Positions 1,112-19,931 of a DNA stretch of 21,762 bases are shown here, piece after piece. The position numbers and the translations under genes are program-made. The stretch is taken from assembly GCA_014380205.1 (NCBI GenBank), contig JACMKH010000263.1, forward strand, positions 1-21,762. The letters run 5' to 3'. This DNA is from Sphingomonadaceae bacterium (GTDB taxonomy: Bacteria; Pseudomonadota; Alphaproteobacteria; Sphingomonadales; Sphingomonadaceae). Within the stretch, counting starts at the first letter, position 1. The number at the start of each line of letters is the position of its first letter. The notes under the pieces were generated by a model. That model was not told the origin of the DNA. It searched no databases and saw only the letters and a program-made list of their open reading frames with translations.

Positions 1112-1161
1112 TTCTCTCTCCTGGCTCTCCCGTGCGCGAGTCGCGCCGCGCGTCGGGAATC

Positions 1162-1176: not shown

Positions 1177-1200
1177 TTATTGCTCGCGAAAGTCGAGATT

Positions 1201-1216
1201 GTATGCAACACATATG
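1201..1216. promoter_or_regulatory. Operator candidate, GTATG-N5-CATAT (GntR-like)
   Basis: GTATGCAACACATAT closely matches GTATGCAATACATAC at 19778-19792, upstream of the Rieske oxygenase. Arms are GTATG and CATAY, separated by 5 bases. Operators with a TTGTAT...ATACAA flavour are known for GntR/FCD-family regulators of catabolic genes, which is the basis for the tentative label. The site lies 46 bases before the preferred transporter start. Confidence 0.5.
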
Positions 1217-1261
1217 ATTCGGAGACGCGACCCTCAGCAGCGGGCGCGAGGAGGATGCGCG

Positions 1262-2626: not shown

Positions 2627-2636
2627 GAAAGGAGAA

Positions 2637-3545: not shown

Positions 3546-4444
3546 AAGATCTTGCCGGCCGCACGGCCTTCGTCACCGGGGGCGCCAACGGGATCGGGCT
3601 CGGGCTCGCGCGCGCTCTGCTCGCCGAGGGGTGCAAGGTGGCCATCGCCGACATCCGCCAGGATTCGATCGACGAGGCGCTCAAGGTCCTCGACAATCAG
3701 CAGGCGATCGGGATCAGGCTCGACGTCGCCTCGCGCGACGCCTTCGCCGCCGCCGCCGACGAGGCCGAGGATCGGCTCGGACCGGTCTCGCTGCTGTTCA
3801 ACAACGCGGGGATCAACCTTTTCCAGACGATCGACGAAAGCTCCTACGACGACTGGGACTGGGTGCTCGGGGTCAACCTCCACGGCGTGATCAACGGAAT
3901 CCAGACCTTCGTGCCGCGGATGAAAGAGCGCGGGGAGGGCGGCCATATCGTCAACACCGCCTCGATGGCCGCGTTCCTCTGCGGCCCCTTGCCCGGCATC
4001 TACAACACGACCAAATTCGCGGTGCGCGGAATGTCCGAGAGCCTGCGCTACAGCCTCGCGCCGCAGGGCATCGGCGTCAGCCTGCTCTGCCCGGGGCTGG
4101 TCAAGAGCTACATTTACGCGAGCGACGACATCCGCCCCGAAGCGCTCAAGGGCGAGATGAAGCCGGTCAACACCGAATTCGTTGAGCAGCTCGGCGGCGT
4201 CCACCAGTTCGGCATGGAGCCCGACGTGATCGCGGCGCGCGTGATAGAGGCGGTCAAGGCCAACCGCTTCTACATCTTCTCGCACCCCGAGTTCAAAGAC
4301 GAGCTTAAAGGCGTGTTCGACGAGATCATCGAGGCGTTCCGCGATTACCCCAAGGATCCGGGCTACGACCAGCGCACCGGCTTCGAGGCGGGGCGCCGCG
4401 AGAGCTACGCCAAGGCGAGGGCGGAGGCGCGCGGCGAAGGCTGA
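3542..4444 (+). CDS. Short-chain dehydrogenase, second LigD-like paralogue
   Basis: A 300-residue SDR, clearly a paralogue of the gene before it: both share TAFVTGGA-GIGLG, DWDWV-GVNL-G-INGI and GEGGHIVNTASM. It carries TGGANGIG (12-19), NNAG (87-90), Ser141, and Tyr154-Lys158 (YNTTK). The segment HQFGMEPDVIAARVIEAV followed by FYIFSHPEFKDEL closely resembles the C-terminus of LigD as remembered (HQHGLEP..., YIIPYPEVREGLE). A pair of such enzymes often handles opposite stereoisomers of one benzylic alcohol in lignin-dimer pathways, so enantiomer-specific roles are plausible. It starts by ATGA overlap with the upstream gene, and its stop overlaps the next start by one base (TGATG). Confidence 0.85.
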   Translation: MKDLAGRTAFVTGGANGIGLGLARALLAEGCKVAIADIRQDSIDEALKVLDNQQAIGIRLDVASRDAFAAAADEAEDRLGPVSLLFNNAGINLFQTIDESSYDDWDWVLGVNLHGVINGIQTFVPRMKERGEGGHIVNTASMAAFLCGPLPGIYNTTKFAVRGMSESLRYSLAPQGIGVSLLCPGLVKSYIYASDDIRPEALKGEMKPVNTEFVEQLGGVHQFGMEPDVIAARVIEAVKANRFYIFSHPEFKDELKGVFDEIIEAFRDYPKDPGYDQRTGFEAGRRESYAKARAEARGEG

Positions 4445-4854
4445 TGGTTCGCGTCGACGCCCTCGATCACGTCAACATCGTCGCGCGCGATCTCGGCGAG
4501 ACGGTCGGCTTCTACGCGGACCTGCTCGATCTCGAGCCGCGCGACCCGCCGCCGCCGCTCGACCCGGCGCGCGTGCAATGGATGCACGACGGCGAGGGCC
4601 GCGCAATCTTCCACCTCTCGACCCCCGGATCGCTGCTTGACGAGGCGCCGATCGAAGATATTCCCAGGCACAGCGGCGCGGTTCACCATGTCGCGCTCGC
4701 TTGTTCGGGGCACGACGCGATGGTCGCGCGGCTCGCCGGGCGCGGGCTCGATCACCGGCTCAACCATGTCGAGGCGATCGATCTCAAGCAGATTTTCGTC
4801 CGCGATCCCAACGGCGTGCTGCTCGAGCTCAATTATTTTGCCGGACACCATTGA
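4444..4854 (+). CDS. VOC-superfamily (glyoxalase/extradiol dioxygenase-fold) protein
   Basis: A 136-residue single-unit vicinal oxygen chelate protein with two beta-alpha-beta-beta-beta modules. The probable metal ligands are visible at the usual places: His9 (LDHVNI), His81 or His82 (VHHVAL) and Glu128 (LLELNY). VDLGETVGFYADLLDL-like wording and DPNGVLLEL are family hallmarks. Members include glyoxalase I, methylmalonyl-CoA epimerase, one-domain dioxygenases and thiol-modifying enzymes, and nothing here selects between them. In this context, between LigD-like SDRs and ring-ketone dioxygenases, a glutathione-conjugate or ring-related step is possible. TGATG coupling links it to the preceding gene. 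Confidence 0.75.
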   Translation: MVRVDALDHVNIVARDLGETVGFYADLLDLEPRDPPPPLDPARVQWMHDGEGRAIFHLSTPGSLLDEAPIEDIPRHSGAVHHVALACSGHDAMVARLAGRGLDHRLNHVEAIDLKQIFVRDPNGVLLELNYFAGHH

Positions 4855-4864
4855 GGAGGCTGAA

Positions 4865-5452
4865 ATGACCGAAGCAATCATGACCGAAGCGGTCGAAGCG
4901 CAGGCCAGGGCGCCGCGCGCGCCGATGACCGCGCCGCCATCGCAGGCGTTCAAGATCGTCGACGTGCCCTTCGCGCACAAGGAGATCGTCGAGCGGCTGA
5001 GCCCCGGCGGCCGCTACATCGACGTCCAGAGCGACGACGACAGCCCCTGGGTGCCGTTCGGCGACAAGGCGGCGATCAAGCATCTCGCCTTCGACGTGCG
5101 CCAGGGCCTCTTCTCCAACATCCTCTGGATCAAGGAGCCGGGCGTGATCGGCACGCACCTTCACCGCGGCACGGTGATGATGGTCTGCCTGGAAGGCAGC
5201 GTGCGCTATCTCGAATACGACTGGGTCGCGACGCCCGGAGGGCTGATCCTCGAGGTTCCGGGCGAGAGCCACACGCTCGTCACCGAGCATCCGACGGGCG
5301 TCAAGCTGTTCGGCTGGATGCAGGGCCCCATCGAATTTTTCGATGAGAACGGCGAGTTCGTCGACACGACCGACGTCTGGTGGTTCATCAACCACTATGA
5401 GTCGCATTGCCGCGAGCACGGCATCCCGCTCAATCCCAAGCTGTATCTGTAG
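4865..5452 (+). CDS. Cupin dioxygenase of the 2,4'-dihydroxyacetophenone dioxygenase (DAD) family, copy 1
   Basis: A 195-residue protein from ATG 4865, preceded by a strong GAGGAGG 5 bases upstream. The core holds PWVPFGDKAAIKHLAFDVRQ, then a cupin HxH (GTHLHRG, His98 and His100) and the second cupin His136 (GESHTLV). The 38-residue distance from the first to the third His equals that remembered for the characterised DAD enzyme (His76, His78, His114). DAD is a mononuclear iron enzyme that cleaves the bond between carbonyl and hydroxymethyl of an aryl hydroxymethyl ketone, giving an aromatic acid and formate. The first 25 residues are a low-complexity extension absent from copy 2. It is followed 12 bases later by a paralogue. 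Confidence 0.8.
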   Translation: MTEAIMTEAVEAQARAPRAPMTAPPSQAFKIVDVPFAHKEIVERLSPGGRYIDVQSDDDSPWVPFGDKAAIKHLAFDVRQGLFSNILWIKEPGVIGTHLHRGTVMMVCLEGSVRYLEYDWVATPGGLILEVPGESHTLVTEHPTGVKLFGWMQGPIEFFDENGEFVDTTDVWWFINHYESHCREHGIPLNPKLYL

Positions 5453-5464
5453 AGGAGATTCGCC

Positions 5465-6013
5465 ATGGCCAGCGCCGCCGACACCGGCCTCAAGGCTCCG
5501 CCTTCGGGCGCGTACAAGATCGTCGCGGTCCCCGAGATCCACCGCCCGATGCTCGACAAATATTGCCGCGAGGGCACCTATATCGGCGCCTCGGAGGAGG
5601 AGAGCCCTTGGGTGCCGTTCGGCGACAACGCCGCGATCCGCCATCTCGCCTTCGACGTCCGCCAGAACGTCTATTGCAACATCCTGTGGATTAAGTCGCC
5701 GGGCGTGATCGGGACGCACAAGCACCGCGGCATGGTCTGGGCGATCGGGCTCGAGGGGAGCTTCCGCTATCTCGAATACGACTGGGTGTGCGGGCCGGGA
5801 GAGTTCATCACCGAGTTCCCCGGCCACGCGCACACGCTCGTCACCGACGATCCCGGCGGGATGAAAGCGCTGTTCTGGATGCAGGGCGCCAACGAATTCT
5901 ACGACGAGGACGGCAATTTCGTCGAGACGCTCGATGTCTGGTGGTTCATGAACCACTACGAGACCTACTGCGGCGAGCACGGGCTGCCGATCAACAAGCA
6001 GCTGTATATCTGA
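5465..6013 (+). CDS. Cupin dioxygenase of the DAD family, copy 2
   Basis: A 182-residue paralogue of the preceding gene. Conserved blocks are SPWVPFGD, LAFDVRQ, NILWIK-PGVIGTH-HRG, RYLEYDWV and DVWWF-NHYE. Iron ligands map to His85, His87 and His123, again with 38-residue spacing. It differs from copy 1 at the pocket-lining strand after HxH (MVWAIGLEGSF against TVMMVCLEGSV) and in the second cupin motif (FPGHAHTL against VPGESHTL), so the two may prefer different substrates or form a heteromer. GAGGAG precedes the ATG. Its stop codon is followed directly by the ATG of the next SDR with no spacer, so the three genes are almost surely co-transcribed. Confidence 0.8.
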   Translation: MASAADTGLKAPPSGAYKIVAVPEIHRPMLDKYCREGTYIGASEEESPWVPFGDNAAIRHLAFDVRQNVYCNILWIKSPGVIGTHKHRGMVWAIGLEGSFRYLEYDWVCGPGEFITEFPGHAHTLVTDDPGGMKALFWMQGANEFYDEDGNFVETLDVWWFMNHYETYCGEHGLPINKQLYI

Positions 6014-6859
6014 ATGCGCACCCTCGACCAGTTCGACATCGCCGGCCGCTCCGCCCTCGTCACCGGTGCCGCCTCGGGAATCGGGCTCGCCTATGCCGAG
6101 GCCATGGCCGAGGCTGGCGCGAGGGTCACGCTGACCGACATCGACGGCGAGGGCGCCGAGCGCGAGGCCGAGCGGCTGCGCGGCGAAGGCCTCGAAGCGC
6201 GCGCGCAGCGGGTCGACGTCGCGGTCCACGGCGATCTCATCCGCGCCTTCGACGATCATGTCGCGGCCTGGGGCGGCTGCGACATCGCCTTCGCCAACGC
6301 CGGCTTCGACGCGGGCAACGGCTTCTGGACGCCCGAGGGGACGCGCAATCCCGAGGGGCAGATCGACGTCTACGACGTCGAGCGCTGGCGGCGCTCGATC
6401 GAGGTCAACCTTACTGGCGTCTTCCACACGATCCGCGAGGCCGCGCGCGTGATGAAGCTCAACGAGGCGCGCACCGGGCGGCGGGGCGGATCGATCGTCG
6501 CGACCTCGTCCAACGCCGCGATCGTCAACGAGGCGATCGTCGGCATTCCGTATATGCCCGCCAAGGCCGGCGTGCGGCATCTCGTCCGCCATGCCGCGCT
6601 CGAGCTCGCCGCCTATGGCATCCGTGTCAACGCGATCGCGCCCGGCCCCTTCGTCACCAACATCGGCGGCGGCTGGCTCAAGAAGGATCCGGCGGCGCGC
6701 GAGGCGTGGGACGCGCTCGTGCCGGTCGGCAGGGTCGCCGAAACGTACCAGATCAAGCCGCTGGCGCTGCTGCTCGCCTCGGATGCGGGGAGCTATATGA
6801 CCGGCAGCCACGTCATGATCGACGGCGGCATGGCGCTTGGCTCGGCGAAGGCGGCGTGA
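6014..6859 (+). CDS. Short-chain dehydrogenase with extended substrate loop
   Basis: A 281-residue SDR. It has TGAASGIG (17-24), ANAG (94-97) in place of NNAG, catalytic Ser at 165/166 (ATSSNAA), Tyr180-Lys184 (YMPAK) and the C-terminal GSHVMIDGGM typical of tetrameric classical SDRs. D42 after the second strand suggests NAD+. Unlike the two LigD-like SDRs it has a loop around 103-122 (FWTPEGTRNPEGQIDVY) and no long C-terminal tail. It belongs to a different SDR subgroup and probably acts on another alcohol or ketone in the route. It starts immediately after the upstream stop codon. The next gene begins 2 bases after its stop, or overlaps it if GTG 6856 is used. Confidence 0.85.
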   Translation: MRTLDQFDIAGRSALVTGAASGIGLAYAEAMAEAGARVTLTDIDGEGAEREAERLRGEGLEARAQRVDVAVHGDLIRAFDDHVAAWGGCDIAFANAGFDAGNGFWTPEGTRNPEGQIDVYDVERWRRSIEVNLTGVFHTIREAARVMKLNEARTGRRGGSIVATSSNAAIVNEAIVGIPYMPAKAGVRHLVRHAALELAAYGIRVNAIAPGPFVTNIGGGWLKKDPAAREAWDALVPVGRVAETYQIKPLALLLASDAGSYMTGSHVMIDGGMALGSAKAA

Positions 6860-6861
6860 CG

Positions 6862-7866
6862 ATGCGCGCCGCGGTCATGCAGGGGCTGCACAAGCCGCTC
6901 ACGGTCGAATCGATCGCCGATCCGCGGCCCGCGCCCGGCGAGGTCGTTCTCCGGGTCGCGCGTTGCGGCATCTGCGGGTCGGACCTCCACATGACCGAGG
7001 ATCCGATGTTCGGCATGGGCGCGGGCGACGTGCTTGGCCATGAGTTCGCGGGCGAGGTGGTCGAGGCCAATGCCGCCGAGGGACTCAAGCCCGGCGATCT
7101 CGTTTCGGTGATCCCGATCCGCGGCTGCGGCCGGTGCGCGAGCTGCCGCGCGGGCGAGCCCGCCTGGTGCGCCGAGATGGCGCTCCAGGGCGGCGGCTAC
7201 GCCGAATATGCGACCGCGCGCGCGCACCAGTGCGTGCCGCTTCCGGCCGGGCTGAGCCTTGCCGACGGCGCGATCATCGAGCCCGTCGCGGTCGCGCTCC
7301 ACGGCGTCAATCTCGCGGGGCTCGAGCCCGGCGCCAAGGTGCTGATCCTCGGTGCGGGACCGATCGGGCTCGCGGTCGCCTTCTGGGCGCGGCGGGCGGG
7401 CGCGAGCGCGGTGATCGTCCAGGACATCGCCGACTGGCAGCGCGAACGTGCGATGGAAATGGGCGCGACGGGCTTCATCGTCGACCGCGACGACCCGGTC
7501 GGCGCGGCCGAGCGCGCGCTCGGCGGCAAGGCCGATGTCGTGTTCGAATGCGTCGGCGTCCCCGGCCTGATCGCGCAGGCGGTCGATCAAGTCCGCGTCA
7601 AGGGCACGGTGCTCGTGCTCGGCCTTTGCACCCGGCCCGACAGCTTCATTCCCTTCACCGCGCTTTCGAAGGAGGTCCGCATCCAGACCTCGGCCTTCTT
7701 CACTACGCGGGAGTATCGCCGCTCGCTTGATGTTCTCGAGGCGGGCGCCGCCGAGCCGCGCGCGCTCGTCACCGGCACGATCGGACTCGACGAGGTTCCC
7801 GAGCGTTTCGAATCGTTGCGGACGCGCACCCATGACTGCAAGGTGCTGATCGCGCCGGGCGGATAG
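6862..7866 (+). CDS. Zinc-dependent alcohol dehydrogenase (MDR superfamily, sorbitol/threonine DH-like)
   Basis: A 334-residue medium-chain dehydrogenase. Catalytic zinc ligands are Cys38 (CGICGSD) and His60-Glu61 (GHEF). The structural zinc lobe is Cys89, Cys92, Cys95 and Cys103. The Rossmann loop GAGPIGLA appears near residue 160, followed by VQDI, an acidic end that favours NAD+. The arrangement matches polyol/threonine dehydrogenase-like members, which oxidise secondary or vicinal alcohols. A GTG at 6856 in frame would overlap the preceding TGA as GTGA and is an alternative start adding two residues. ATG 6862 is kept because MRAAV is the usual N-terminus of this family. Confidence 0.85.
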   Translation: MRAAVMQGLHKPLTVESIADPRPAPGEVVLRVARCGICGSDLHMTEDPMFGMGAGDVLGHEFAGEVVEANAAEGLKPGDLVSVIPIRGCGRCASCRAGEPAWCAEMALQGGGYAEYATARAHQCVPLPAGLSLADGAIIEPVAVALHGVNLAGLEPGAKVLILGAGPIGLAVAFWARRAGASAVIVQDIADWQRERAMEMGATGFIVDRDDPVGAAERALGGKADVVFECVGVPGLIAQAVDQVRVKGTVLVLGLCTRPDSFIPFTALSKEVRIQTSAFFTTREYRRSLDVLEAGAAEPRALVTGTIGLDEVPERFESLRTRTHDCKVLIAPGG

Positions 7867-7884
7867 CAAAGGAAAGTGAGTGAG

Positions 7885-9549
7885 ATGCCCGAAGAGTTGA
7901 TCGCCGATTATGTCATTGTCGGCGCGGGGAGCGCGGGGTGCGTGCTCGCCAACCGGCTGTCGGAGGACCCCGCGAACAAGGTCGTGCTGCTCGAGGCGGG
8001 CGGCGACGACCGGCCGATGCGCGGCGGGATCGGCCAGCTCTGGTCGAACATCATGGTCCACACGCCGATCGGCTTCGGCAAGACGCTCAACGATCCCAAG
8101 GTCAACTGGCTCTACGAGACCGAAGTCGACGAGGGCAGCGGCGGGCGGCCGCACAAATGGCCCAAGGGCAAGGTGCTCGGCGGCTCCTCCTCGATCAACG
8201 GGCTGCTCTACATCCGCGGCCAGTCGGCCGATTACGACGGCTGGCGGCAGATGGGCTGCGAGGGTTGGTCGTACGACGACGTGCTCCCCCATTTCCGCAA
8301 GGGCGAGCACCAGGAGCGCGGCGAATGCGAGGTCCACGGCGTCGGCGGCGGGCTCAACGTAGCCGATTTTCCCGAGCAGCATCCGGTCAGCCAGGCGCTG
8401 ATCGACGCCTGTGTCGAGGCGGGCATTCCGTATCGGGAGGACATCAACACCGGCGATCAGGAGGGCGTCACCTGGTTCCAGCTGACCTGGAAGGACGGGC
8501 GGCGCTGCTCGGCCGCGGTGGCGTTCCTCCACCCGGTGATGAACCGCGCCAACCTAGCCGTCGAGACGCGCGCACTAACGACGCGGGTGCTGTTCGAGGG
8601 CAGGCGTGCGGTCGGCGTCGAGTTCAGGCAAAACGGCAAGAAGCGCACGGTTCGGGCACGGCGCGAGGTGATCCTCGCGGCGGGCTCGGTCGAGAGCCCG
8701 AAACTGCTCGAGGTATCGGGCATCGGCCAGGGCGCGCGGCTCCGCGAGCTCGGCGTGGCGGTCGTCCACGAGTCGCCGGGCGTCGGCGAGAATCTCCAGG
8801 ACCATTACATGATCGGCTGCCAGGCGCGGCTCAAGCCCGGCACGCCCTCGGTCAACGACATGGCGAGCGGGCTCGCGCTGGCCAGGCAGGTCGCCCGCTA
8901 CGGGTTCACGCGACGCGGCCTGCTGAGCTACGCGGTCGCGCACGGCACCGCCTTCGCCAAGTCGCGGGAGGGGCTCGAATCGCCCGACATCCAGATCCAC
9001 GTGATGGCCGCGAGCATGGACCTCGAGGTGCTCCAGGCAACCCAGGCGCTCCAGCTCGAGAAGCTGCCCGGGCTCGCCTCGAACCCGTGCCAGCTGCGCC
9101 CCGAATCGCGCGGCTCGATCCACGCCAAATCGCCCGACGCGACCGCCTACCCGCGCATCGCCCCCAACTATCTCTCCGATCCGCTGGACCGCGAGATGGC
9201 GGTCACCCAGCTCAAGCTGATCCGCAAGATCTGGCGTCAGCCCGCGATCGCGAAGTATCTCGATTCGCCCGACGATCCGTTCGGCGACACCGACGAGGCG
9301 ATGTTCCGCTACGCGCAACTCGCCGGCGGCACGCTCTACCATCCCGTCGGGACGTGCAAGATGGGGCATGATCCCAAGGCGGTCGTCGATCCGCAGCTTC
9401 GCGTGCGCGGCGTCGAGGGGCTGCGCGTCGTCGACGCCTCGATCATGCCTCGCATCGTCTCGGGCAACACCAACGCCGCGACGATCATGATCGGCGAGAA
9501 GGGGGCGGAGATGATCCTCGCTTCGGCGCGCGAGGCGATGGCGGCCTAG
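7885..9549 (+). CDS. GMC-family FAD-dependent alcohol oxidoreductase (choline dehydrogenase-like)
   Basis: A 554-residue flavoenzyme. The FAD loop is GAGSAG (13-18), followed by VVLLEAGG. GMC signature 1 is GKVLGGSSSINGLLYIRG and signature 2 is GSVESPKLLEVSGIG. The active-site pair sits in YHPVGTCKMG (His486) and SGNTNAA (Asn528/530). There is no signal peptide, so it should be cytoplasmic or peripherally bound. Relatives oxidise primary alcohols of choline, polyethers and aryl-alkyl substrates; polyethylene glycol dehydrogenase of sphingomonads is one. ATG 7885 is preferred to the in-frame GTG 7876, which lies too near the AGGAAA ribosome site. It ends the rightward run, and its TAG shares the CTAG palindrome with the stop of the opposing SDR. 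Confidence 0.88.
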   Translation: MPEELIADYVIVGAGSAGCVLANRLSEDPANKVVLLEAGGDDRPMRGGIGQLWSNIMVHTPIGFGKTLNDPKVNWLYETEVDEGSGGRPHKWPKGKVLGGSSSINGLLYIRGQSADYDGWRQMGCEGWSYDDVLPHFRKGEHQERGECEVHGVGGGLNVADFPEQHPVSQALIDACVEAGIPYREDINTGDQEGVTWFQLTWKDGRRCSAAVAFLHPVMNRANLAVETRALTTRVLFEGRRAVGVEFRQNGKKRTVRARREVILAAGSVESPKLLEVSGIGQGARLRELGVAVVHESPGVGENLQDHYMIGCQARLKPGTPSVNDMASGLALARQVARYGFTRRGLLSYAVAHGTAFAKSREGLESPDIQIHVMAASMDLEVLQATQALQLEKLPGLASNPCQLRPESRGSIHAKSPDATAYPRIAPNYLSDPLDREMAVTQLKLIRKIWRQPAIAKYLDSPDDPFGDTDEAMFRYAQLAGGTLYHPVGTCKMGHDPKAVVDPQLRVRGVEGLRVVDASIMPRIVSGNTNAATIMIGEKGAEMILASAREAMAA

Positions 9550-10319
9550 CGCGTCATCAGCGTGCCGAGGATGCCGCCGTCGACCGCGATCGCCTGCGCG
9601 GTGATGTGGCTCGCCGCGTCCGAGAGCAGGAACGCCGCCGCTTCGGCGAGCTCCTCGGCGCTGCCGATCCGCCCCTGCGGGACGCCCTTACCCAGCATGT
9701 CGCGGACCGCGTCGGGCGCGTCGGGATCGATGTTCATCAACATCGGCGTCTCGATGAATCCCGGGATCACGCAGTTGACGCGGACGCCGTGCGGCGCGAC
9801 CTCGATCGCCGCGGCGCGCGCGAGCCCGAGCACGCCGTGTTTCGAGGCGACATAGGCCGCGTTGTTCGCCATCCCGCGTTCGCTGGCGAGGCTGCCCGTG
9901 ACGAGGATGCTCCCGCGCCCGCGCGCGACCATGCCGGGCAGCACACGCTTGATCGCCCAGAACACGCTCGCAAGGTTGACGCGGATCACAGCGTCGAAAT
10001 CCTCGTCGGCGTAATCGGCGAGCGGCGCGAACGTTCCCCCCGTCCCGGCGTTGGCGAATAGCCCCTCGATCGGCCCGAGCGCCGCCTCGGCCTCGTCGAA
10101 CGCGGCGAGCAACGCGGACTTGTCGCCGACATCGGCGGCGAACCAGCGGGCGTCTCCGCCCATCGCGGCGACCGCTTCGGCGAGCTTGCCCTCGCTCCGC
10201 GCGATCATTGACACACGCGCGCCGCGCTCCGCGAGCAGCGCTGCGGTTGCGCGTCCGATCCCGGTCGATGCGCCGGTGACGAGGATGTGGCGGTCGTCGA
10301 AGTGTAGTTTGTCTGACAT
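9546..10319 (-). CDS. Short-chain dehydrogenase (classical SDR, FabG-like)
   Basis: A 257-residue SDR with TGASTGIG (15-22), ANAG (89-92), Ser143 (VTGSLAS), Tyr156-Lys160 (YVASK) and a VIPGFIETPM segment after strand six. R41 after the second strand suggests NADP(H) rather than NAD+, unlike the SDRs of the rightward operon. ATG at 10317-10319 has GGAG 7 bases upstream; part of that Shine-Dalgarno lies on the edge of the neighbouring hairpin repeat. The gene converges on the GMC oxidoreductase with a four-base overlap of stop codons. The product probably reduces or oxidises a pathway ketone/alcohol; no specific substrate can be read out. Confidence 0.85.
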   Translation of the reverse strand: MSDKLHFDDRHILVTGASTGIGRATAALLAERGARVSMIARSEGKLAEAVAAMGGDARWFAADVGDKSALLAAFDEAEAALGPIEGLFANAGTGGTFAPLADYADEDFDAVIRVNLASVFWAIKRVLPGMVARGRGSILVTGSLASERGMANNAAYVASKHGVLGLARAAAIEVAPHGVRVNCVIPGFIETPMLMNIDPDAPDAVRDMLGKGVPQGRIGSAEELAEAAAFLLSDAASHITAQAIAVDGGILGTLMTR

Positions 10320-10329
10320 TCCCAAACTC

Positions 10330-10369
10330 CGTCATTCCCGCGAAAGCGGGAATCCAGCTTCTTCTTTCA
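10330..10369 (+). repeat. Hairpin repeat, copy A (left arm of the GIY-YIG unit)
   Basis: It starts CCGTCATTCCCGC, then GAAA, then GCGGGAATCCAGCTTCTTC. The palindrome ATTCCCGC/GCGGGAAT forms an 8-bp stem with a GAAA-type loop. The sequence is a member of the widespread 'CGTCATTCCCGCGAAAGCGGGAATCC' type seen in many proteobacteria (from memory). Confidence 0.85.
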
Positions 10370-10657
10370 GGCGTTGATCGTGGGAAACAGGTCGTTCCAA
10401 TCGGGGTTCGTGCTCTCGATCAGCTCGATCTTCCAATCGCGCAGCCATTTCTTGGCCGCCTTCTCGCGGGCGATGGCCAGCGGCATCGTGTCGTGGCGCT
10501 CGACATGGACGAGACGGAGCAGGCGATATTTGCTGGCGAATTTCGAACCAGCGCGGGCTCGGTGTTGCGCCGCTCGCACAGCGATGTTGGCGGTGACGCC
10601 GGTATAGATCGTGCCGCGATAGCGGTTGGCGAGCATGTAGACCCATGCTTCGCGCAT
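10367..10657 (-). CDS. GIY-YIG nuclease-domain protein (YhbQ/UPF0213-like)
   Basis: A 96-residue stand-alone GIY-YIG domain. The two signature strands are WVYMLA (5-10) and TIYTGVT (16-22). Then come Arg28 and His32 (VRAAQH), a lysine/tyrosine-rich segment (SKFASKYRLLRLV) and the probable catalytic Glu65 (AIAREKAAKKWL). No extra DNA-binding domain is present. This small family occurs in many copies in some proteobacteria and its role is poorly defined; proposals include repair-like nicking. Here the gene fills exactly the space between two inverted repeats, which suggests that the protein recognises or mobilises them. That link is inference. A GAGG lies very close to the ATG, so translation may be weak. 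Confidence 0.85.
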   Translation of the reverse strand: MREAWVYMLANRYRGTIYTGVTANIAVRAAQHRARAGSKFASKYRLLRLVHVERHDTMPLAIAREKAAKKWLRDWKIELIESTNPDWNDLFPTINA

Positions 10658-10667
10658 GCCTCAGACA

Positions 10668-10710
10668 GAAAGAAGAAGAAGCTGGATTCCCGCTTTCACG
10701 GGAATGACGG
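10668..10710 (-). repeat. Hairpin repeat, copy B (right arm of the GIY-YIG unit)
   Basis: This is the reverse complement of copy A. In the palindrome one arm reads ATTCCCGT instead of ATTCCCGC, which changes a C-G pair to a T-G wobble and so keeps the stem. It has one extra CTT triplet in the pyrimidine tail relative to copy A. Confidence 0.85.
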
Positions 10711-10731
10711 GGGAGGGCTCAGTGGACCTCA

Positions 10732-11598
10732 TTACGCCAGACCCAGCACCTTGATCGCGTTTTCCTTCATGATCAGCGGGAGCACCTCCTCGCGGAAGCC
10801 CGCGTCCTGCGCGGCCTCGAGCCATTTCTCGGGCTTGATCAGCGGGAAATCCGAGCCGAACAGCATTTTGTGCCTGAGCTGCGTGTTCGCGTACTGAATC
10901 ACCTGCGGCGGGAAATATTTGGGCGACCAGCCGGAGAGGTCGATGAACACATTCTCCTTGTGGAGCGCCATCGACAGGCTCTGGTCGGTCCACGGCCAGC
11001 TCGGGTGGGCGAGGATGAATCGGATGTCGGGGAATGCGGCCGCGACCTCGTCGATCAGCATCGGCTCGCCCCATTTGAGGCGGACGCCCCCGCCCGCGGG
11101 CATCCCCGTTCCCATCCCCGAATGGCCGGTGTGAAAGAGCGCGGGAAGCTTGTGCTCGGCGATCACCTCGTAGAGCGGCCAGGCGATGCGGTCCGCCGGA
11201 TGAATGTCCTGCATGATGCCGTGGAACTTGAAGCCGCGGACGCCGTAATTCTCGATCAGATCACGCGCCTCGCGCGCGCCGAGCTTGCCCTTGCGAGGGT
11301 CGATCGACGCGAAAGGGATGACGATGTCGAGGTTGTCGGCGGCGAGCTCGGCGATCTCGTAATTGCTCACGCGTTTCGCGCCGAGGCTCGATTCGCAATC
11401 GACGGTGAACAGGCAGAAGCCGATTTCGCGCTCGCGGTAGTAGGCGATCGTCTCGGGGATCGTCGGGCGCTTGCGGTCGGCCTTGAAATAGGCTGAGGCC
11501 GCGTCGAAGAACTCGGCCATCACCGGGTCCTCGGGATCGTGGCACGAGACCTCGGCGTGGACGTGGACGTCGATCGCCTTGAGCTTGGTGACGTCCAT
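10732..11598 (-). CDS. Amidohydrolase-2 family metal-dependent hydrolase/decarboxylase
   Basis: A 288-residue TIM-barrel protein of the amidohydrolase_2 (ACMSD-like) family. The N-terminal metal motif is HxH (His12, His14, IDVHVH). Further ligands are probably His156 or His159 (LFHTGHSG), His198 (LAHPSWPW) and Asp250 (FGSDFPL). The family includes nonoxidative aromatic decarboxylases and lactone or C-C hydrolases. A role on an aromatic acid or lactone in this cluster is possible but unspecified. ATG at 11596-11598 has AAAGG 7 bases upstream, directly beside hairpin repeat C. The frame stays open upstream through the repeats and gives an artefactual IPAFAGMT-type extension, which was removed. 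Confidence 0.85.
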   Translation of the reverse strand: MDVTKLKAIDVHVHAEVSCHDPEDPVMAEFFDAASAYFKADRKRPTIPETIAYYREREIGFCLFTVDCESSLGAKRVSNYEIAELAADNLDIVIPFASIDPRKGKLGAREARDLIENYGVRGFKFHGIMQDIHPADRIAWPLYEVIAEHKLPALFHTGHSGMGTGMPAGGGVRLKWGEPMLIDEVAAAFPDIRFILAHPSWPWTDQSLSMALHKENVFIDLSGWSPKYFPPQVIQYANTQLRHKMLFGSDFPLIKPEKWLEAAQDAGFREEVLPLIMKENAIKVLGLA

Positions 11599-11609
11599 GA
11601 CGCAGCCTT

Positions 11610-11693
11610 TCGTCATTCCTGCGAAGGCAGGAATCTGCTTCTTCCGCCAGCCTATGAAGAAGAAGCAGATTCCCGCTTCCGCGGGAACGACGA
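11610..11693. repeat. Inverted pair of hairpin repeats (copies C and D) with no gene between
   Basis: Copy C (11610-11644) and copy D (11656-11693, reversed) face each other across 11 bases, in the same relative orientation as copies A and B. In copy C the stem reads ATTCCTGC/GCAGGAAT, a paired change from C-G to T-A relative to copy A. In copy D the terminal A is G, giving a G-T wobble. The facing GCTTCTTC and GAAGAAGC tails can also pair, making one long cruciform. The pair lies in the 113-base gap between the aldehyde dehydrogenase and amidohydrolase genes. Confidence 0.85.
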
Positions 11694-11711
11694 GCTTCTT
11701 CCCCTTCCTCC

Positions 11712-13244
11712 CTAAAGCGCGATGATCACCGACTTGAGCTCGGTGTACGCCTCGACGCCCTGGCGCGCCTGTTCGCGGCCGAGGCCCGATTGCTTGAAGC
11801 CGCCGAACGGCAGCGCGGGGTCGATCATCATGTGGCAATTGCCCCAGACGGTGCCCGCCCTGAGCTTGGCGCACATCTTGTGCATCGCGGAGATGTCGCG
11901 CGTCCACACCGAGGCGGCGAGCCCGAAGTCCGAATCATTGGCTTGGCGCGCGACCTCGTCGAGATCATCGAAGCGCTGGGCGACCACCACGGGGCCGAAG
12001 ATCTCCTCGCGGACCACGCTCATCTCGGGATTGACGTCGACGAGCACGGTCGGGGTGACATAATAGCCCTCGGGGCCGATCGCCTCGCCGCCGGTGACCA
12101 CCGACGCGCCCGCCTTCTTGCCCTGATCGATATAGTCGAGCACGCGGCGGTGCTGCTCGTCCGAGACGAGCGGACCCATCTTGGTGTCCGCGGCGAGCGA
12201 GGGGCCGACCTTCCAGCCCTGCGCGGCGTTGGCGACACCCTCGACGAGCTTGTCGAAAATGTCCTTGTGCGCATAGAGCCGCGACCCCGCGACGCAGACC
12301 TGGCCCGCGTTGAAGAAGATCGCGTTGGCCGCGCCGCTTGCGGTCGCCTCGATGTCGACATCGGGGAGGACGAGCACAGGCGACTTGCCGCCAAGCTCGA
12401 GCGTCACGTTCTTGAGCGTGTCGGTCGCGGCGCGGTTGATCACCTTGCCGATCTCGGTCGATCCGGTGAAGGCGACCTTGTCGACATCGCGGTGACGGAC
12501 GAGCCGGTCTCCCGCAGTGTGGCCGTTGCCCGTAATGACATTGACCACCCCCGGCGGGAAGCCCGCGGCGGCGACCATGTCGGCGAGCAGCAGCGCGGTC
12601 AGCGAGGTCTGCTCGGCGGGTTTGAGGATCACGCAGCAGCCCGCCGCGAGCGCGGGGGCGATCTTGAGCGTGGCCATCAGGAGCGGGAAGTTCCACGGCA
12701 CGATCTGCGCGGCGACGCCGACCGGCTCGCGGCGGACATAGGCGTGGAACGCGCCCGAGGGGGCGGTCATCGGATCGATCTGGTCGCCGCCGATCTTGGT
12801 CGCCCAGCCCGCCATGTAATGGAGCATGCCGGCGGCGGCGGGCACGTCGAGCGCGGCGGCGACGGTGCGCGGCTTGCCGTTGTCGATCGCCTCGAGCTCG
12901 GCGAACAGGTCGGCGTTCTTGTGGATCTGGTCGGCGAGCGCGTGGATCATGCTCTCGCGCGCGATCGGCGGAAGGCCCGTCCAGCGGCCGTCGTCGAAGG
13001 CGGTGCGCGCGGCGGCGACGGCGCGGTCGACATCGTCGTTCGAGGCGTCGACGATGCGCGCGATCTCGCGGCCGTTCGAGGGATCGACGACGGCGAGCGT
13101 CTCGTCATGCCGCGAATCGACCCATTCGCCGTCGATGAAAAGCTGCGGCCGGCGGTCGAGCCACTTCTGCGCCGCGGCCGAATAGGCGGATTGCGGGGAC
13201 AAGGTACGCTCGGCGGGGCGGCTCATCGTGTTGACGTCGTTCAT
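11712..13244 (-). CDS. NAD-dependent aldehyde dehydrogenase (phenylacetaldehyde/betaine aldehyde DH-like)
   Basis: A full-length 510-residue ALDH. Asn185 lies in PWNFPLL, the NAD-binding FTGSTEIGK segment at about 259-267, general base Glu283 in LELGGKS, and the nucleophile Cys317 in FNAGQVCVAGSR. The C-terminal PFGGFKQSGLGRE is also present. The wording LHYMAGWATKIGGDQI and the DNGKP motif resemble phenylacetaldehyde dehydrogenase (FeaB/StyD) and other aromatic aldehyde dehydrogenases. It would take the aldehyde made by the PQQ or GMC alcohol dehydrogenases to the acid that the CoA ligase could activate. AGGAGAG lies 6 bases before the ATG. A GTTAT-N5-ATAAC operator candidate stands 27 bases upstream, so it probably has its own promoter. 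Confidence 0.88.
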   Translation of the reverse strand: MNDVNTMSRPAERTLSPQSAYSAAAQKWLDRRPQLFIDGEWVDSRHDETLAVVDPSNGREIARIVDASNDDVDRAVAAARTAFDDGRWTGLPPIARESMIHALADQIHKNADLFAELEAIDNGKPRTVAAALDVPAAAGMLHYMAGWATKIGGDQIDPMTAPSGAFHAYVRREPVGVAAQIVPWNFPLLMATLKIAPALAAGCCVILKPAEQTSLTALLLADMVAAAGFPPGVVNVITGNGHTAGDRLVRHRDVDKVAFTGSTEIGKVINRAATDTLKNVTLELGGKSPVLVLPDVDIEATASGAANAIFFNAGQVCVAGSRLYAHKDIFDKLVEGVANAAQGWKVGPSLAADTKMGPLVSDEQHRRVLDYIDQGKKAGASVVTGGEAIGPEGYYVTPTVLVDVNPEMSVVREEIFGPVVVAQRFDDLDEVARQANDSDFGLAASVWTRDISAMHKMCAKLRAGTVWGNCHMMIDPALPFGGFKQSGLGREQARQGVEAYTELKSVIIAL

Positions 13245-13270
13245 CTGGGCTCTCCTGTGAGTCGGGCTTT

Positions 13271-13285
13271 GTTATGGCCTATAAC
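13271..13285. promoter_or_regulatory. Operator candidate, GTTAT-N5-ATAAC, upstream of the aldehyde dehydrogenase
   Basis: GTTATGGCCTATAAC has the same arms and spacing as the site at 1162-1176, and an inner GGCC. It lies between the ATG of the aldehyde dehydrogenase (13244) and the hairpin repeat at 13290. It suggests that this gene and the 1.1-1.3 kb divergent promoter answer to the same regulator. Confidence 0.5.
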
Positions 13286-13289
13286 ATTT

Positions 13290-13326
13290 TCGTCATTCCC
13301 GCGAAAGCGGGAATCCGGCTTTCTTT
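13290..13326 (+). repeat. Hairpin repeat, solo copy E
   Basis: TCGTCATTCCCGC followed by GAAA and GCGGGAATCC matches copy A over about 25 bases, then the tail diverges (GGCTTTCTTT). The palindrome is perfect. No inverted partner is present nearby. It lies between the stop of the PQQ alcohol dehydrogenase and the aldehyde dehydrogenase promoter, where the hairpin might also end transcription from the left-going upstream gene. Confidence 0.8.
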
Positions 13327-13341
13327 CGCGAGGCTGGCGGT

Positions 13342-15483
13342 TCATCGCGCGCCGAGCTGATTGACGGTGGGCGAGGCGAGGTTGCGGTCCTGATTGGCGC
13401 GGCTGATGACATAATGGCGGACGGCGTCGGCCTGTTCCGCGTTCATCACGCGCCGCCACGAGATCATGCCGTTCTGCGCGAGCACGCCGTCGATCACCAC
13501 CGAGCGCCAGGTGTCGGCGTTGCCGAGCGCGGCCGAGTAGCGCAGATCGGGGATCACCGTCCCCGCTACCGCCGCGTCGCCGTGGCAGACACCGCAAAAG
13601 CGCCCGAATAGCCGCCCGCCCGTCGCGATCTGCTCGGGCGTGCCGCGCGAGGGCGGCGGGTCGAGCGCGCGCTCCTGGACGGGAAGCCGCTCGGGCAATT
13701 GCGCCGTGCCGCCGAGCCGGTAGACGAGCAGCCGGCTGACATTGGGCACGACGCCCGATGTGTAGGACAGCGTCCCCGGCGCCAGCGCCCAGACCCCGCC
13801 CCAGCCCGCGAGCACCGCGACATATTGGACGCCGTCGATCGAATAGGTCATCGGCGCGGCGACCACGCCGGTCTGCGCGGGCGCCGTCCAGAGCTGCTCG
13901 CCGGTCTCGCTGTTGAACGCCGCGAAATCGCCCGCCGCCGATCCCTGGAAGACAAGCCCGCCCGCAGTCGCGAGCACGCCGCCGTTCCATGGGCCGCGAT
14001 AGTTGACGCGCCACACCTCGCGCTGGGCGACCGGGTCCCAAGCGATCAGCGCGCCGCGCGTTCCCGTCGCGGCGGCGCGGCGGACATTGTCGTCGGCGGG
14101 CATCGCGCCCGCTGCCATGTCGATCCCGACGTTGAAGCCGAGCGGGGCCGGCTCCCAATTCTCCTCGGGGATATAGGGGAAGCCCGCCTCGATCGCGGGG
14201 ATGAAGACGAGCCCGCTCGCGGGGTCGAACGCCATCGGATGCCAGCTGTGCGCGCCCGTCGCGCCGGGCGAGGAGACGAAGGGCTGGCCGGTGCGGTAAT
14301 AGCGCGCGGCGGGGTTCTCGATCGGCCGGCCGGTCTCCTGGTCGATCCCGGTCGCCCAGTTCACCGGCACGAAATTGTGCGCCGAGATGAACTCGCCGGT
14401 CTCGCGGTCGATCACGTAGAAGAAGCCGTTCTTGGGCGCCTGCATCAGCACGCGGCGCGTCTCGCCCTCGATCTCGAGATCGGCGAGGATGATGTGCTGG
14501 GTTGCGGTGAAGTCCCAGGTCTCGCCCGGAGTCGTTTGATAATGCCAAACATATTCGCCAGTGTCGGGCCGTAGCGCGACGATCGAGGAGATGTAGAGAT
14601 TGTCGTTGTTGCGTCCCGGCGTCTCGGGCGAGCGATAGGCCTGGTTCCAGGGCGAGCCGTTGCCGACGCCGATGTACAGCAGGTTCAATTCGGGGTCGTA
14701 GGCCATCGCGTCCCACACGGTGCCGCCGCCGCCGATGCTCCACCACTCGCCGTTCCAGGTTTCGGCGGCGCGCTGGAGATAGGCGGGCTGCTCGCCCTCG
14801 GCGGGGTTGGTGGGGACGGTGTAAAAGCGCCAGAGTTGTTCGCCGCTCGCCGCGTCATAGGCGGTGATATAGCCGCGCACGCCGAACTCGGCGCCGCCGT
14901 TGCCGATGATCACGCGCCCGTCGATCACGCGCGGCGCGCCGGTGATCGTATAGGGCTGGGACTGGTCGACGGTCACCTGGCTCCACACTTCGGCGCCGGT
15001 GGCCCGGTTGATCGCGACGAGCCGCCCGTCGAGCGTGCCGACATAGAGGTTGCCGCCCCACGCCGCGACGCCGCGGTTGACCGCGTCGCAGCACGCCTTG
15101 GCCCCGGTCTCGCGCGGCACCTCGGGGTCGTACGACCAGAGCAGCCGCCCGGTCGCGCCGTCGTATGCGTTGACCTTGCTCCAAGCGGTCGAGACGTAGA
15201 GCGTGCCGTCGATCATCAGCGGCGTCGCCTCCTGGCCGCGCGCGGTGTCGAGATCGGCGAACCAGGCGAGCCCGAGCTCGGAGACATTCTCGCGGTTGAT
15301 CGAATCGAGCGGGCTGAAGCGCTGCTCGCTGTAGGTGCGCCCAGTGGTCAGCCATTCGCCGGGAGTCGAATCGGCGCCGACGATCCGCGCGCCGTCGATC
15401 CCGTTCTGCGTCGCCGCCGCGTCGTCGTCGGCCGAGCAGGCGGCCAGCGCGAGCATCGCGCAGAGTCCGAGCAAGATCCTCAT
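13342..15483 (-). CDS. PQQ-dependent quinohaemoprotein alcohol dehydrogenase, predicted lipoprotein
   Basis: A 713-residue enzyme: lipoprotein signal MRILLGLCAMLALAAC with Cys16 as the lipidation site (LAAC, Ser at +2), an eight-bladed PQQ propeller, and a C-terminal cytochrome c domain with CGVCH (Cys630, Cys633, His634) and a possible axial Met673. The vicinal Cys131-Cys132 (KACCDAV) is the ring disulphide of quinoprotein alcohol dehydrogenases. Glu199, Asn275 and Asp324 (ETWDFT) fit the Ca2+/catalytic set. It would oxidise alcohols outside the inner membrane and pass electrons to the respiratory chain; PQQ synthesis genes are not in the window. Three in-frame starts exist (GTG 15495, ATG 15489, ATG 15483). 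The last is chosen for its GAGG spacing and clean signal peptide. Confidence 0.88.
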   Translation of the reverse strand: MRILLGLCAMLALAACSADDDAAATQNGIDGARIVGADSTPGEWLTTGRTYSEQRFSPLDSINRENVSELGLAWFADLDTARGQEATPLMIDGTLYVSTAWSKVNAYDGATGRLLWSYDPEVPRETGAKACCDAVNRGVAAWGGNLYVGTLDGRLVAINRATGAEVWSQVTVDQSQPYTITGAPRVIDGRVIIGNGGAEFGVRGYITAYDAASGEQLWRFYTVPTNPAEGEQPAYLQRAAETWNGEWWSIGGGGTVWDAMAYDPELNLLYIGVGNGSPWNQAYRSPETPGRNNDNLYISSIVALRPDTGEYVWHYQTTPGETWDFTATQHIILADLEIEGETRRVLMQAPKNGFFYVIDRETGEFISAHNFVPVNWATGIDQETGRPIENPAARYYRTGQPFVSSPGATGAHSWHPMAFDPASGLVFIPAIEAGFPYIPEENWEPAPLGFNVGIDMAAGAMPADDNVRRAAATGTRGALIAWDPVAQREVWRVNYRGPWNGGVLATAGGLVFQGSAAGDFAAFNSETGEQLWTAPAQTGVVAAPMTYSIDGVQYVAVLAGWGGVWALAPGTLSYTSGVVPNVSRLLVYRLGGTAQLPERLPVQERALDPPPSRGTPEQIATGGRLFGRFCGVCHGDAAVAGTVIPDLRYSAALGNADTWRSVVIDGVLAQNGMISWRRVMNAEQADAVRHYVISRANQDRNLASPTVNQLGAR

Positions 15484-15520
15484 TCGCATCCTCACCCAGC
15501 GCTTGTGTCGTTCGGCAGGG

Positions 15521-17086
15521 CTAGTTCACCAAACGCGCGCTGTCGCCCCAATATTCCTTGCGCAATTTCTTCTTGTCCATCTTGCCCGCCGCCGTGCGCG
15601 GGATCGAGTCCACAAATGCGACCGTCTTGGGCGCCTTGACCCCGCCGAGCCGCGCCTTGGTGTGCGCGATGATCGCGCTATCGTCGATGCCCTCGGCGAC
15701 GACGATTGCGTGGACCGCCTCGCCCCATTTCTCGTGGGGAACGCCGATCACCGCGCATTCGCGCACCTGCGGCAGCTCGGTCACCGCCGCCTCGACCTCG
15801 GTGGTGAAGACGTTGAACCCGCCCGTCACGACCATGTCCTTCTTGCGGTCGACGATATAGAGATAACCCTGCTCGTCGAACCTGCCGACGTCGCCGGTAT
15901 GGTGCCAGCCGAACTTGCGGATCTCGGCGGTCTCCTCGGGCTTCTCGAAATAGGAATGCGAGACGAGCACGCCGCGCGCGCAGATCTCGCCCGATTCGCC
16001 GGGCGCGACGCGGTTGCCGTCGTCGTCGAGCAGCGCGACCCGAATCGAGCGCGTCGGCTTGCCGCACGCGGCGAGCTTCTCGGGAGCCTCGCTCGCGAAG
16101 CGCGCGACATCCTCGGGCGGGAACCAGGCGACGATCATCGGGCATTCGACCTGGCCGTAGCTCTGGCACATGCAGGGGCCGAAGGTTTCGACCGCCTGGC
16201 GCAGCTTCTCGGGGCTGCACGGCGAGCCGACGAGGATGAATATCCGCAAGCTCGAATAATCGTGGTCGCCGATCTCGGGCGAGGCGAGCAGCTGGTAAAG
16301 CGCGGTCGGCGGCAGATACATATGCGTGACGCGATGCTCCGCGATCGCGCGCAGCACCTTCTCGGCGTTGAAGCCGGGGAGGATCACCTGGGTCGCGCCG
16401 AGGTTCAGGGTCGAGAGCGCGATCGGCCCGGCGGCATGGGTGATCGGCGCCGAGACCAGCGCGACGGGCGCGTCGGTGCGCCCGCCCATCGCGTCGGCGG
16501 CGGTCTCGATCATCGTCCCCCAGCCGAGGTTGGTGACGTTGGCGCCCTTCGAGGGGCCGGTCGTCCCGCCGGTCGGGAAGATGCCGACCAGCTCGGACAT
16601 GTTGCCGAAGGCGTCGATCTCGGGCTCGACGAAATCATCCTCGCTCACCCCCTCGATGAACTGGTCGAGCGAGGGATCGCCGCCCGTCGGCTGGTCGAGG
16701 CAGACGAATTTGGTCAGCGTCGGGCACAGCGCGCGGAGCTGCTCGACCTCGTCGGCGAGGCTCGAATGGTAGAACATCCAGCGGCAGCGGACGTAATTGA
16801 TATAGGCCGCGTTGGCGTCGATCGCGTTGCGCGTGTTGACCGGAATCCAGACGCCGTTGGCGCGCCACATCGCGAGCAGCACGATCAGGATCGACCCGCC
16901 GTTGGGGCCATAGAGCGCGAGCAGATCCTGGTTGGCGAACCCGTCGCGCTGCATCGCAGCGGCGATCCGCTCGCTCAGCGCCTTGACCTCGGCGAAGCTG
17001 TATCGCCGGCCGGTGACGGTATCGACGATGCAGGCGCGCGCGGGATCGCGGTCATGCCCCCGATCGAAATAGTCGATTGATCTCAC
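15521..17086 (-). CDS. Acyl-CoA ligase / AMP-binding enzyme (ANL superfamily)
   Basis: A 521-residue ANL ligase. The P-loop is PTGGTTGPSKG (171-181), the adenine motif YGQVE (310-314), the ribose-binding Asp399 in HHTGDVG, the hinge region DRKKDMVVTGGFNV (413-426) and the catalytic Lys502 in RTAAGKMDKKKL. It activates a carboxylic acid to an acyl-AMP and then the CoA thioester. The A4-A5 pocket (PITHAAGP, VGSPCSPEKL) resembles fatty/aryl-alkanoic acid ligases, not benzoate ligases, but specificity is uncertain. The start is GTG at 17084-17086 with AGGA 7 bases upstream. It lies 28 bases after the GST stop on the same strand and likely shares the Rieske-GST transcript. Confidence 0.87.
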   Translation of the reverse strand: MRSIDYFDRGHDRDPARACIVDTVTGRRYSFAEVKALSERIAAAMQRDGFANQDLLALYGPNGGSILIVLLAMWRANGVWIPVNTRNAIDANAAYINYVRCRWMFYHSSLADEVEQLRALCPTLTKFVCLDQPTGGDPSLDQFIEGVSEDDFVEPEIDAFGNMSELVGIFPTGGTTGPSKGANVTNLGWGTMIETAADAMGGRTDAPVALVSAPITHAAGPIALSTLNLGATQVILPGFNAEKVLRAIAEHRVTHMYLPPTALYQLLASPEIGDHDYSSLRIFILVGSPCSPEKLRQAVETFGPCMCQSYGQVECPMIVAWFPPEDVARFASEAPEKLAACGKPTRSIRVALLDDDGNRVAPGESGEICARGVLVSHSYFEKPEETAEIRKFGWHHTGDVGRFDEQGYLYIVDRKKDMVVTGGFNVFTTEVEAAVTELPQVRECAVIGVPHEKWGEAVHAIVVAEGIDDSAIIAHTKARLGGVKAPKTVAFVDSIPRTAAGKMDKKKLRKEYWGDSARLVN

Positions 17087-17114
17087 GAAAAAATCCTCAC
17101 CGTTCCGGGAGGAT

Positions 17115-19719: not shown

Positions 19720-19777
19720 CCACGCTCTCCCATCGCTTTTCGCGCGAATCGGGCGGGCTTGGCGCCCGCTCCATTTT

Positions 19778-19792
19778 GTATGCAATACATAC
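19778..19792. promoter_or_regulatory. Operator candidate, GTATG-N5-CATAC (GntR-like)
   Basis: GTATGCAATACATAC is a perfect 5+5 inverted repeat. It matches the site at 1201-1215 in 13 of 15 bases. The preceding bases are TTTT here and ATT there, so TTGTATGCAAYACATAY is the shared core. It lies 59 bases from the Rieske ATG, a sensible place for a repressor or activator site. Confidence 0.55.
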
Positions 19793-19843
19793 TATTTTGG
19801 CGGCGTCAACGCCGTCAGTGCAAACGGGACAGGAGTGAAAAAG

Positions 19844-19912: not shown

Positions 19913-19931
19913 GCGTGGCGAGGAGACTAAC

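Follow-up and report, generated by a model that had tools for sequence, protein, structure and literature searches.

A GIY-YIG nuclease gene between inverted CGTC-type REP hairpins in a Sphingomonadaceae genome: a candidate compact element related to the Ssn family

The Ssn family of GIY-YIG proteins, site-specific single-stranded nucleases of Neisseria and its relatives, has reportedly been described by Chenal, Veyrier and colleagues (Nature Communications, 2025). The Neisseria Ssn is said to cut single-stranded DNA at a dRS3/NTS-like repeat and to modulate transformation, and a link between a GIY-YIG nuclease and such repeats is reportedly already published for Neisseria under this name. The subject here is a 382-bp unit (10329-10710) in a 21,762-nucleotide (nt) stretch of DNA from a Sphingomonadaceae bacterium (assembly GCA_014380205.1, contig JACMKH010000263.1, positions 1 to 21,762; the whole stretch is called the window). 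In this unit, one gene for a small GIY-YIG protein lies between two inverted hairpins of the repetitive extragenic palindromic (REP) kind. The unit is probably, at a rough probability of two in three, a compact element made of an Ssn-like nuclease and the cognate CGTC-REP ends that it recognises, with gene-less pairs of the repeat (REPINs, REP doublets forming hairpins) as its short derivatives.

The repeats belong to a described class. CGTC-1 REPs feature a CGTC tag, an 8-bp stem starting with AT, a 4-nt loop and a CCA tail, and occur mostly as tags-outside (HH) dimers (Di Nocera et al. 2013, PMC3733652). CGTC-type REPs are found mostly in alphaproteobacteria and also in Neisseria and other phyla; the enzyme serving them, if any, is left open there, no tyrosine-transposase gene is reported to be flanked by CGTC repeats, and associations with other transposases are few and fortuitous. 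Tag, stem, loop, tail and dimers all recur in the window, and by these features the arms of the unit belong to the CGTC-1 REPs, a type that goes by the name of dRS3 in Neisseria. The difference from the repeats of the survey is the nuclease gene that lies between them here.

The second system for comparison is that of the REPIN-RAYTs or REPtrons, which combine GTAG REPs with a Y1 transposase, the REP-associated tyrosine transposase (RAYT). The unit resembles them in having one enzyme gene between inverted REP hairpins and short dimers that are dispersed, and differs in featuring GIY-YIG instead of HUH/Y1, CGTC instead of GTAG and no RAYT gene. In a search confined to this transposase family, a PF01797 (Y1/RAYT) gene was found in none of 12 genomes, which had been selected on account of their repeats and are at least 90% complete in 9 cases; among 14 known genomes, the control search was positive in 5, which include E. 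coli and Caulobacter. Because the defining RAYT was searched for and not found, the unit is not counted as a member of the REPIN-RAYT family, and the contrast with RAYT-moved repeats drawn in an earlier note on this DNA holds. A RAYT or IS200-type mobiliser was rejected as a candidate on the same 12 genomes.

The locus itself has the architecture given in that note, with near-identical inverted hairpin repeats around one 96-residue GIY-YIG gene. The two arms are 38 nt each, complementary at 37 of 38 positions (97%) and separated by 306 nt. Read inward, an arm consists of CCGTC, an 8-bp stem with a 4-nt loop, CCA and GCTTCTTCTT; the hairpin is ATTCCCGC-(4 nt)-GCGGGAAT in each, and the tract after it is CCAGCTTCTTCTT. 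Two details were corrected: the stop codon (10367-10369), placed in the note inside one arm, abuts the left arm, which ends at 10366, and the distance of the start codon from the other arm is 15 nt, where the note has about 10. When folded as single strands of DNA, the left arm reaches -9 kcal/mol (z -2.6), better than 197 of 200 shuffles, and the right arm -6.2 kcal/mol (z -1.7), better than 191 of 200. The gene starts with ATG, stops with TGA and matches the Pfam GIY-YIG domain with E 6e-12. Five repeat cores with up to 3 mismatches occur in the window versus 0.37 expected, and none of 100 shuffles had as many.

The 96-residue protein has its best named relatives in a Sphingosinicella metagenome-assembled genome and in Sphingomonas (67% identity both). 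Tyr18, Gly20, Arg28, Glu65 and Asn84 are invariant in an alignment of 32 rows and Tyr7 is conserved in at least 90%; Tyr7, Tyr18, Arg28, Glu65 and Asn84 are what we take to be the catalytic positions of GIY-YIG nucleases. The predicted structure is a confident small mixed α/β fold with a pLDDT (predicted local distance difference test) of 91.9. The nearest solved sequences to the family profile, alike by their match to this profile, are the UPF0213 proteins of PDB entries 1zg2 (E 5.5e-8) and 1ywl (E 5.5e-5), and no NCBIfam model matched the window protein at E 0.001. Since the ratio of nonsynonymous to synonymous substitution rates (dN/dS) is 0 to 0.41 in 18 of 18 chosen homologue pairs, several of them with few changes, and since the motif residues are conserved, the gene is, by this comparison, kept under purifying selection.

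A relative in N. gonorrhoeae, 46% identical over 93% and found in a plasmid collection, lies among 11 dRS3-like repeats clustered within 2067 bp, and for this reason the window protein is tied to the Ssn family. Traits of Ssn are found in the unit as well: a small single-domain GIY-YIG protein with an intact motif, kin to the N. gonorrhoeae relative, and a matching hairpin repeat of many copies in the genome (53 cores). The difference is that a two-ended 382-bp unit, gene-less derivatives and site polymorphism in relatives are seen here. On grounds of sequence and setting, the unit is best filed as an Ssn relative with cognate CGTC-REP ends. The description of the system as distinct and little-described in the earlier note thus stands in part: the link between nuclease and repeat is reportedly published for Neisseria, and the framing seen in the majority of the relatives examined, the agreement of types and the evidence for turnover, as presented below, would go beyond the publications known to us.

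The repeat is abundant in the genome of the window: 53 cores with no more than 2 mismatches were counted versus 0 for the reversed control, beside a single copy of the gene (the genome is 87.6% complete). Among 50 cores listed, a count by hand places 40 in 20 close pairs, the starts of which are separated by 53-128 bp, and the tags point outward in all three close pairs read (L001, L004 and the one in the window). The gene-less pairs that were read have the same tract on the inner side of the hairpin as the gene-bearing unit, and because this tract is common to both they are taken as putative short derivatives of the unit.

Framing of the gene by inverted repeats recurs across its relatives. 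A homologue is present in 137 of 199 genomes of the same family, and the best 150 listed matches were all taken with their flanks; a locus counts as framed if the best inverted repeat between its two 200-bp flanks scores at least 15, and shifted positions at the same loci serve as controls. The framed loci amount to 124 of these 150, compared with 3 of 294 controls, so that the refuting case named in the earlier note, with most homologues outside such repeats, was not found among the loci examined. CGTC-like tagged hairpins in the right orientation were found on both flanks at 109 of the 150 loci, on one flank at 35 and on none at 6; the controls had them on both flanks in 3 of 290 cases and on one flank in 36 of 290 (near-CGTC tags TGTC, CCTC, CATC, AGTC and CGTT were accepted at the loci, all except CGTT in the controls). 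The stems with 4-nt loops among the homologues are ATTCCCGC, ATCCCAGC, ATGCCAGC and GCCCCTGC, and those with CTTG loops are ACCCCGGG, ACCCCGGA and ATGCTGAA. The two arms of one locus agree in stem and loop class at 91 of 109 loci, with a shuffled mean of 17.7 and a maximum of 32. These figures bear on chance nesting, i.e., an old chromosomal GIY-YIG gene on both sides of which REPs happened to insert. REPs are common in the genome of the window, and the one-sided hairpins at relatives and controls alike would suit such a history; as a general account, it is refuted by the framing controls together with the matched arm types, and it is given next to no chance.

Further away from the window, 112 of the 398 genomes searched in the phylum yielded relatives in a profile search at E 1e-10. 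Framing was seen at 22 of 30 profile loci, 21 of 40 further loci and 44 of 80 named loci, with 1 of 284 in the controls: the framing rule becomes weaker with distance and remains far in excess of the controls. Sphingomonadales, Caulobacterales and Rhizobiales are among the named loci with framing. Relatives in the plasmid collection are framed by hairpins in Aeromonas, Novosphingobium and S. meliloti, and the Planktothrix one is unframed. The latter, on plasmid p1 of Planktothrix agardhii (L370), lies between an MmeI-type restriction-modification gene and the DISARM gene drmA, with GTCATTCTGAG repeats around. Relatives in Bacteroidota (Bizionia, L345; Flavobacterium, L347) lie between other palindromes of the GTCATTGCGAGG kind, and those of other phyla, including Gastranaerophilales (L350) and Chloroflexi (L352), between other palindromic or inverted repeats, some of GTCATTGCGAGG type.

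The type of the repeat goes along with the protein. On the protein tree (n=140; types with one or two members were omitted and the label of L005 was set by hand), the repeat type changes 27 times versus at least 77 times in 200 shuffles, and the loop class changes 8 times versus at least 35 times in shuffles. Genomes with at least five exact copies of type A make up 15 of 24 genomes with a matching gene, 16 of 113 with another or unread GIY-YIG gene only and 4 of 62 without the gene; the corresponding numbers are 8 of 28, 1 of 109 and 0 of 62 for type B and 10 of 32, 1 of 105 and 0 of 62 for type C, where the gene's own two arms are included in the copy counts, the gene types are those of 150 loci only, and the exact patterns counted are narrower than the gene classes, which go by inner stem and loop. 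When matching genomes are set against all others (20 of 175 for A, 1 of 171 for B and 1 of 167 for C), Fisher's test yields 1.2e-7, 4.8e-7 and 3.0e-8, respectively, with relatedness uncontrolled. By these counts, the repeat type of a gene tracks the protein tree, and the repeat that fills a genome can be predicted from it. Variation goes most closely with the loop class of the cognate repeat at residues 67, 70 and 72 (kinship uncontrolled), shortly behind the conserved Glu65, and these are candidate specificity residues, offered as a lead.

This dependence on the protein also bears on a reading in which the unit is a non-autonomous passenger of a trans-acting transposase, either a RAYT or an unrelated insertion sequence (IS), and the GIY-YIG gene is cargo. 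Its appeal lies in inverted ends without a classical transposase inside, and IS families are said to be able to mobilise ends resembling miniature inverted-repeat transposable elements. The missing PF01797 gene in all 12 genomes, 3 of them under 90% complete, speaks against it, as do the repeat type that follows the GIY-YIG protein and, in the 2013 survey, the lack of a tyrosine-transposase gene flanked by CGTC repeats (PMC3733652). With the transposase search confined to PF01797, the passenger reading is considered highly improbable.

Copies, deletions and altered sites in relatives indicate turnover of such units. Genome G071 carries nine dispersed copies of a type-C unit, and their sites are unlike one another; five copies are full-length and the other four are deletion derivatives in two pairs of equal length, two of 252 bp and two of 342 bp. 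Full-length copies for which the two hairpin ends were read span 389 bp between these ends, full-length pairs are 94-97% identical, and the similarity of the copies stops within about 110 bases outside the hairpins. GTTCGTT or a like sequence stands next to the unit in 8 of 8 left flanks read, and TTGCGGACGTTCGTT in 4 of 8. Motifs resembling GACATTGCGGAC also occur unit-free in G071 and in G139. This observation on the GTTCGTT-like end, with 4 of 8 units behind TTGCGGAC, covers L162-L168 and L174 in G071 and further L192, L206, L210 and L215; in the sister species G139, a different unit type lies behind a similar motif (L198). The GTTCGTT-like or TTGCGGAC motif may be an insertion target. For one of the units of G071 (L167), no clean empty site was found in G139, the sole other genome of the genus compared, where only one flank matched. 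Genome G111 features four full-length and three deleted copies of a type-B unit; the full ones are 81-94% identical and one has an in-frame stop.

Site polymorphism is seen on plasmids and in closely related strains. A Sphingobium plasmid series has seven records that cover 99-100% of the filled site with 95-100% identity; filled sites were read at L373, L378 and L380, and the gene of L380 is broken. TomTYG64 (L375) and TomTYG74 (L376) have a single palindrome with a CGTC-like tag at both ends in place of the unit, which looks like a footprint, as if the outer halves of both hairpins had been fused, and TomTYG72 and TomTYG65 have other sequence at this site. Sinorhizobium meliloti Ak57 carries one intact and one deleted unit; Sinorhizobium sp. 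K101 (L374), with flanks about 95% identical to those of Ak57, has a fused hairpin and a degenerate single-tagged hairpin instead. Double-tagged palindromes of type A occur at 21 places, spread over 8 of 14 repeat-rich genomes; the single-tagged ones of the same genomes number 464. In the plasmid collection, the records NZ_CP119142.1 and NZ_AP026896.1 (2.2 and 4.9 Mb) are labelled plasmids and look like chromosomes.

For the window unit itself, the earlier note asked for an empty insertion site in a relative, and one was found in the distant genome G195 of the same genus: the genes flanking the unit are adjacent, with 59 bp between matches instead of 475 and no hairpin, and at the junction stop and start seemingly overlap. 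Homologues of some kind occur in 6 of 10 genus members, the genome of the window included, and the best near-full-length one is 50% identical to the window protein, with short pieces of up to 58%. Terminal inverted repeats around a gene, dispersed copies in G071 and G111 and this empty site are the features of an autonomous element found here. Compared with a GIY-YIG homing endonuclease, whose place is an intron, an intein or a long conserved target within one gene, the window gene is free-standing between two genes and bounded by REPs, and the copies of G071 and G111 lie at unlike sites.

The same data can be set against an Ssn-type factor of genome maintenance or transformation, which would recognise the repeats without moving them. 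The repeats would then be marker or barrier sites spread by recombination, transformation or slippage, and the gene would sit between two of them for autoregulation or travel by homologous recombination at them. Such a role would agree with the N. gonorrhoeae locus, where the dRS3-like cluster (ATTCCC-N8-GGGAAT repeats) forms no neat two-ended unit and the best inverted flanking pair lies 154 nt upstream, with the effect on transformation attributed to the Neisseria Ssn, and with repeat-rich genomes in which no gene was detected; the fused palindromes could be plain deletions between short arm repeats. The polymorphic sites argue in the other direction, as do the full and deleted copies that G071 and G111 have at unlike places; both call for a process by which gene and ends are carried along together. 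A factor that recognises the repeats without moving them is held to be rather unlikely, with a chance that deserves attention.

Several observations weigh against the reading of the unit as a compact element of nuclease and cognate ends. Four genomes (G018, G032, G136 and G177) have no detected gene and yet hold between 8 and 30 copies of the three repeat types searched for; G018 and G177 are 85-86% complete, G032 and G136 at least 99%, and relics, missed genes or another agent are candidate explanations. The expectation that genomes without the gene also lack the repeats hence fails in 4 of 62, which have at least five repeats of the three types. Co-inheritance alone could yield the result on the protein tree without any recognition. 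With 11 loci overlapping the first set removed, the wider sets are framed at 14 of 21, 21 of 40 and 43 of 78 loci, and the window's own genus has framing at 7 of 11 loci. As the flanks in G195 are just 80% and 68% identical, its empty site is that of a distant species, in which gain would look like loss. The window unit is single-copy in its genome, so its own movement was not seen, and no target-site duplication was visible by eye at 10329-10710; some single-strand elements produce no target-site duplication. The polymorphic sites would fit gain and loss alike, and a deletion between short arm repeats would leave the same footprint as enzymatic excision.

Set against these points, the compact-element reading draws on what genome comparison brings out: framing, co-inheritance of repeat type and protein clade, enrichment of matching repeats, dispersed and deleted copies, site polymorphism and purifying selection. 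That nuclease and repeats belong together, as claimed before, is well supported by framing and type matching. We infer that the protein would recognise and cleave the hairpin with a preference for single strands and would drive the movement of the unit, the last being put forward as a hypothesis. The repeat would fold once it becomes single-stranded, be it on the lagging strand, during DNA uptake in transformation or as an extruded hairpin, and the nuclease would cut at or near the foot of the hairpin or in its loop. Joining of the ends could then yield copies at new sites, loss with a palindromic footprint or spread by gene conversion. Gene-less REPINs and single copies, which carry the same ends, would depend or once have depended on the same enzyme. 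A bolder version makes CGTC REPs and REPINs transposable elements driven by their own GIY-YIG nuclease on single-stranded hairpin ends, independent of RAYT, present in several phyla and leaving a fused double-tagged palindrome upon excision. We know of no such role in transposition for a nuclease fold of the GIY-YIG kind, and this version is tentative, with the odds somewhat against it.

The features of the locus are collected in Table 1. The REPIN of the window lies directly upstream of the amidohydrolase-type gene. The surroundings (1-20000, by inspection of open reading frames only) look catabolic, with short-chain dehydrogenases, a GMC-type (glucose-methanol-choline) oxidoreductase, an amidohydrolase, an aldehyde dehydrogenase, a pyrroloquinoline quinone (PQQ) dehydrogenase, and Rieske and glutathione-transferase-like proteins. 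A scan of 10200-10850 for promoters and terminators found none. A known RNA element was rejected, as two sub-threshold Rfam matches, one of them a microRNA model on the REPIN (11617-11686), were judged to be chance; phage cargo was rejected with no match at E 1e-5 in a phage collection.

Table 1. Features of the nuclease unit and its surroundings, in window coordinates
Feature	Position	Strand	Details
Left arm, CGTC-1 REP end	10329..10366	+	CCGTC tag, core 10334-10353 (ATTCCCGC GAAA GCGGGAAT), CCA tail, GCTTCTTCTT tract
Ssn-like 96-residue GIY-YIG nuclease gene	10367..10657	-	Open frame; Y7, Y18, R28, E65, N84 present
Right arm, same REP end inverted	10673..10710	-	Hairpin core 10686-10705, one stem mismatch
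Gene-less inverted pair of the same repeat (REPIN, HH dimer, tags outward)	11611..11692	.	Cores 11615-11634 and 11669-11688
Single repeat copy	13291..13318	+	Core 13295-13314
Neighbour, short-chain dehydrogenase gene	9546..10319	-	Named by inspection; start taken as the ATG at 10319
Neighbour, amidohydrolase-type gene	10732..11598	-	Named by inspection; start taken as the ATG at 11598

Because many relatives lie between their own matching hairpins, the comparison suggests that such nucleases serve, and may spread, the CGTC-type repeat class. If the nuclease also moves the repeats, this would be a transposition chemistry parallel to that of REPIN-RAYT with an unrelated enzyme, and to our knowledge a chemistry of such kind is not described. 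For the CGTC-type REPs, whose enzyme was left open in the 2013 survey (PMC3733652), the GIY-YIG nuclease, with its gene between repeats of matching type in many genera, would be a candidate enzyme.
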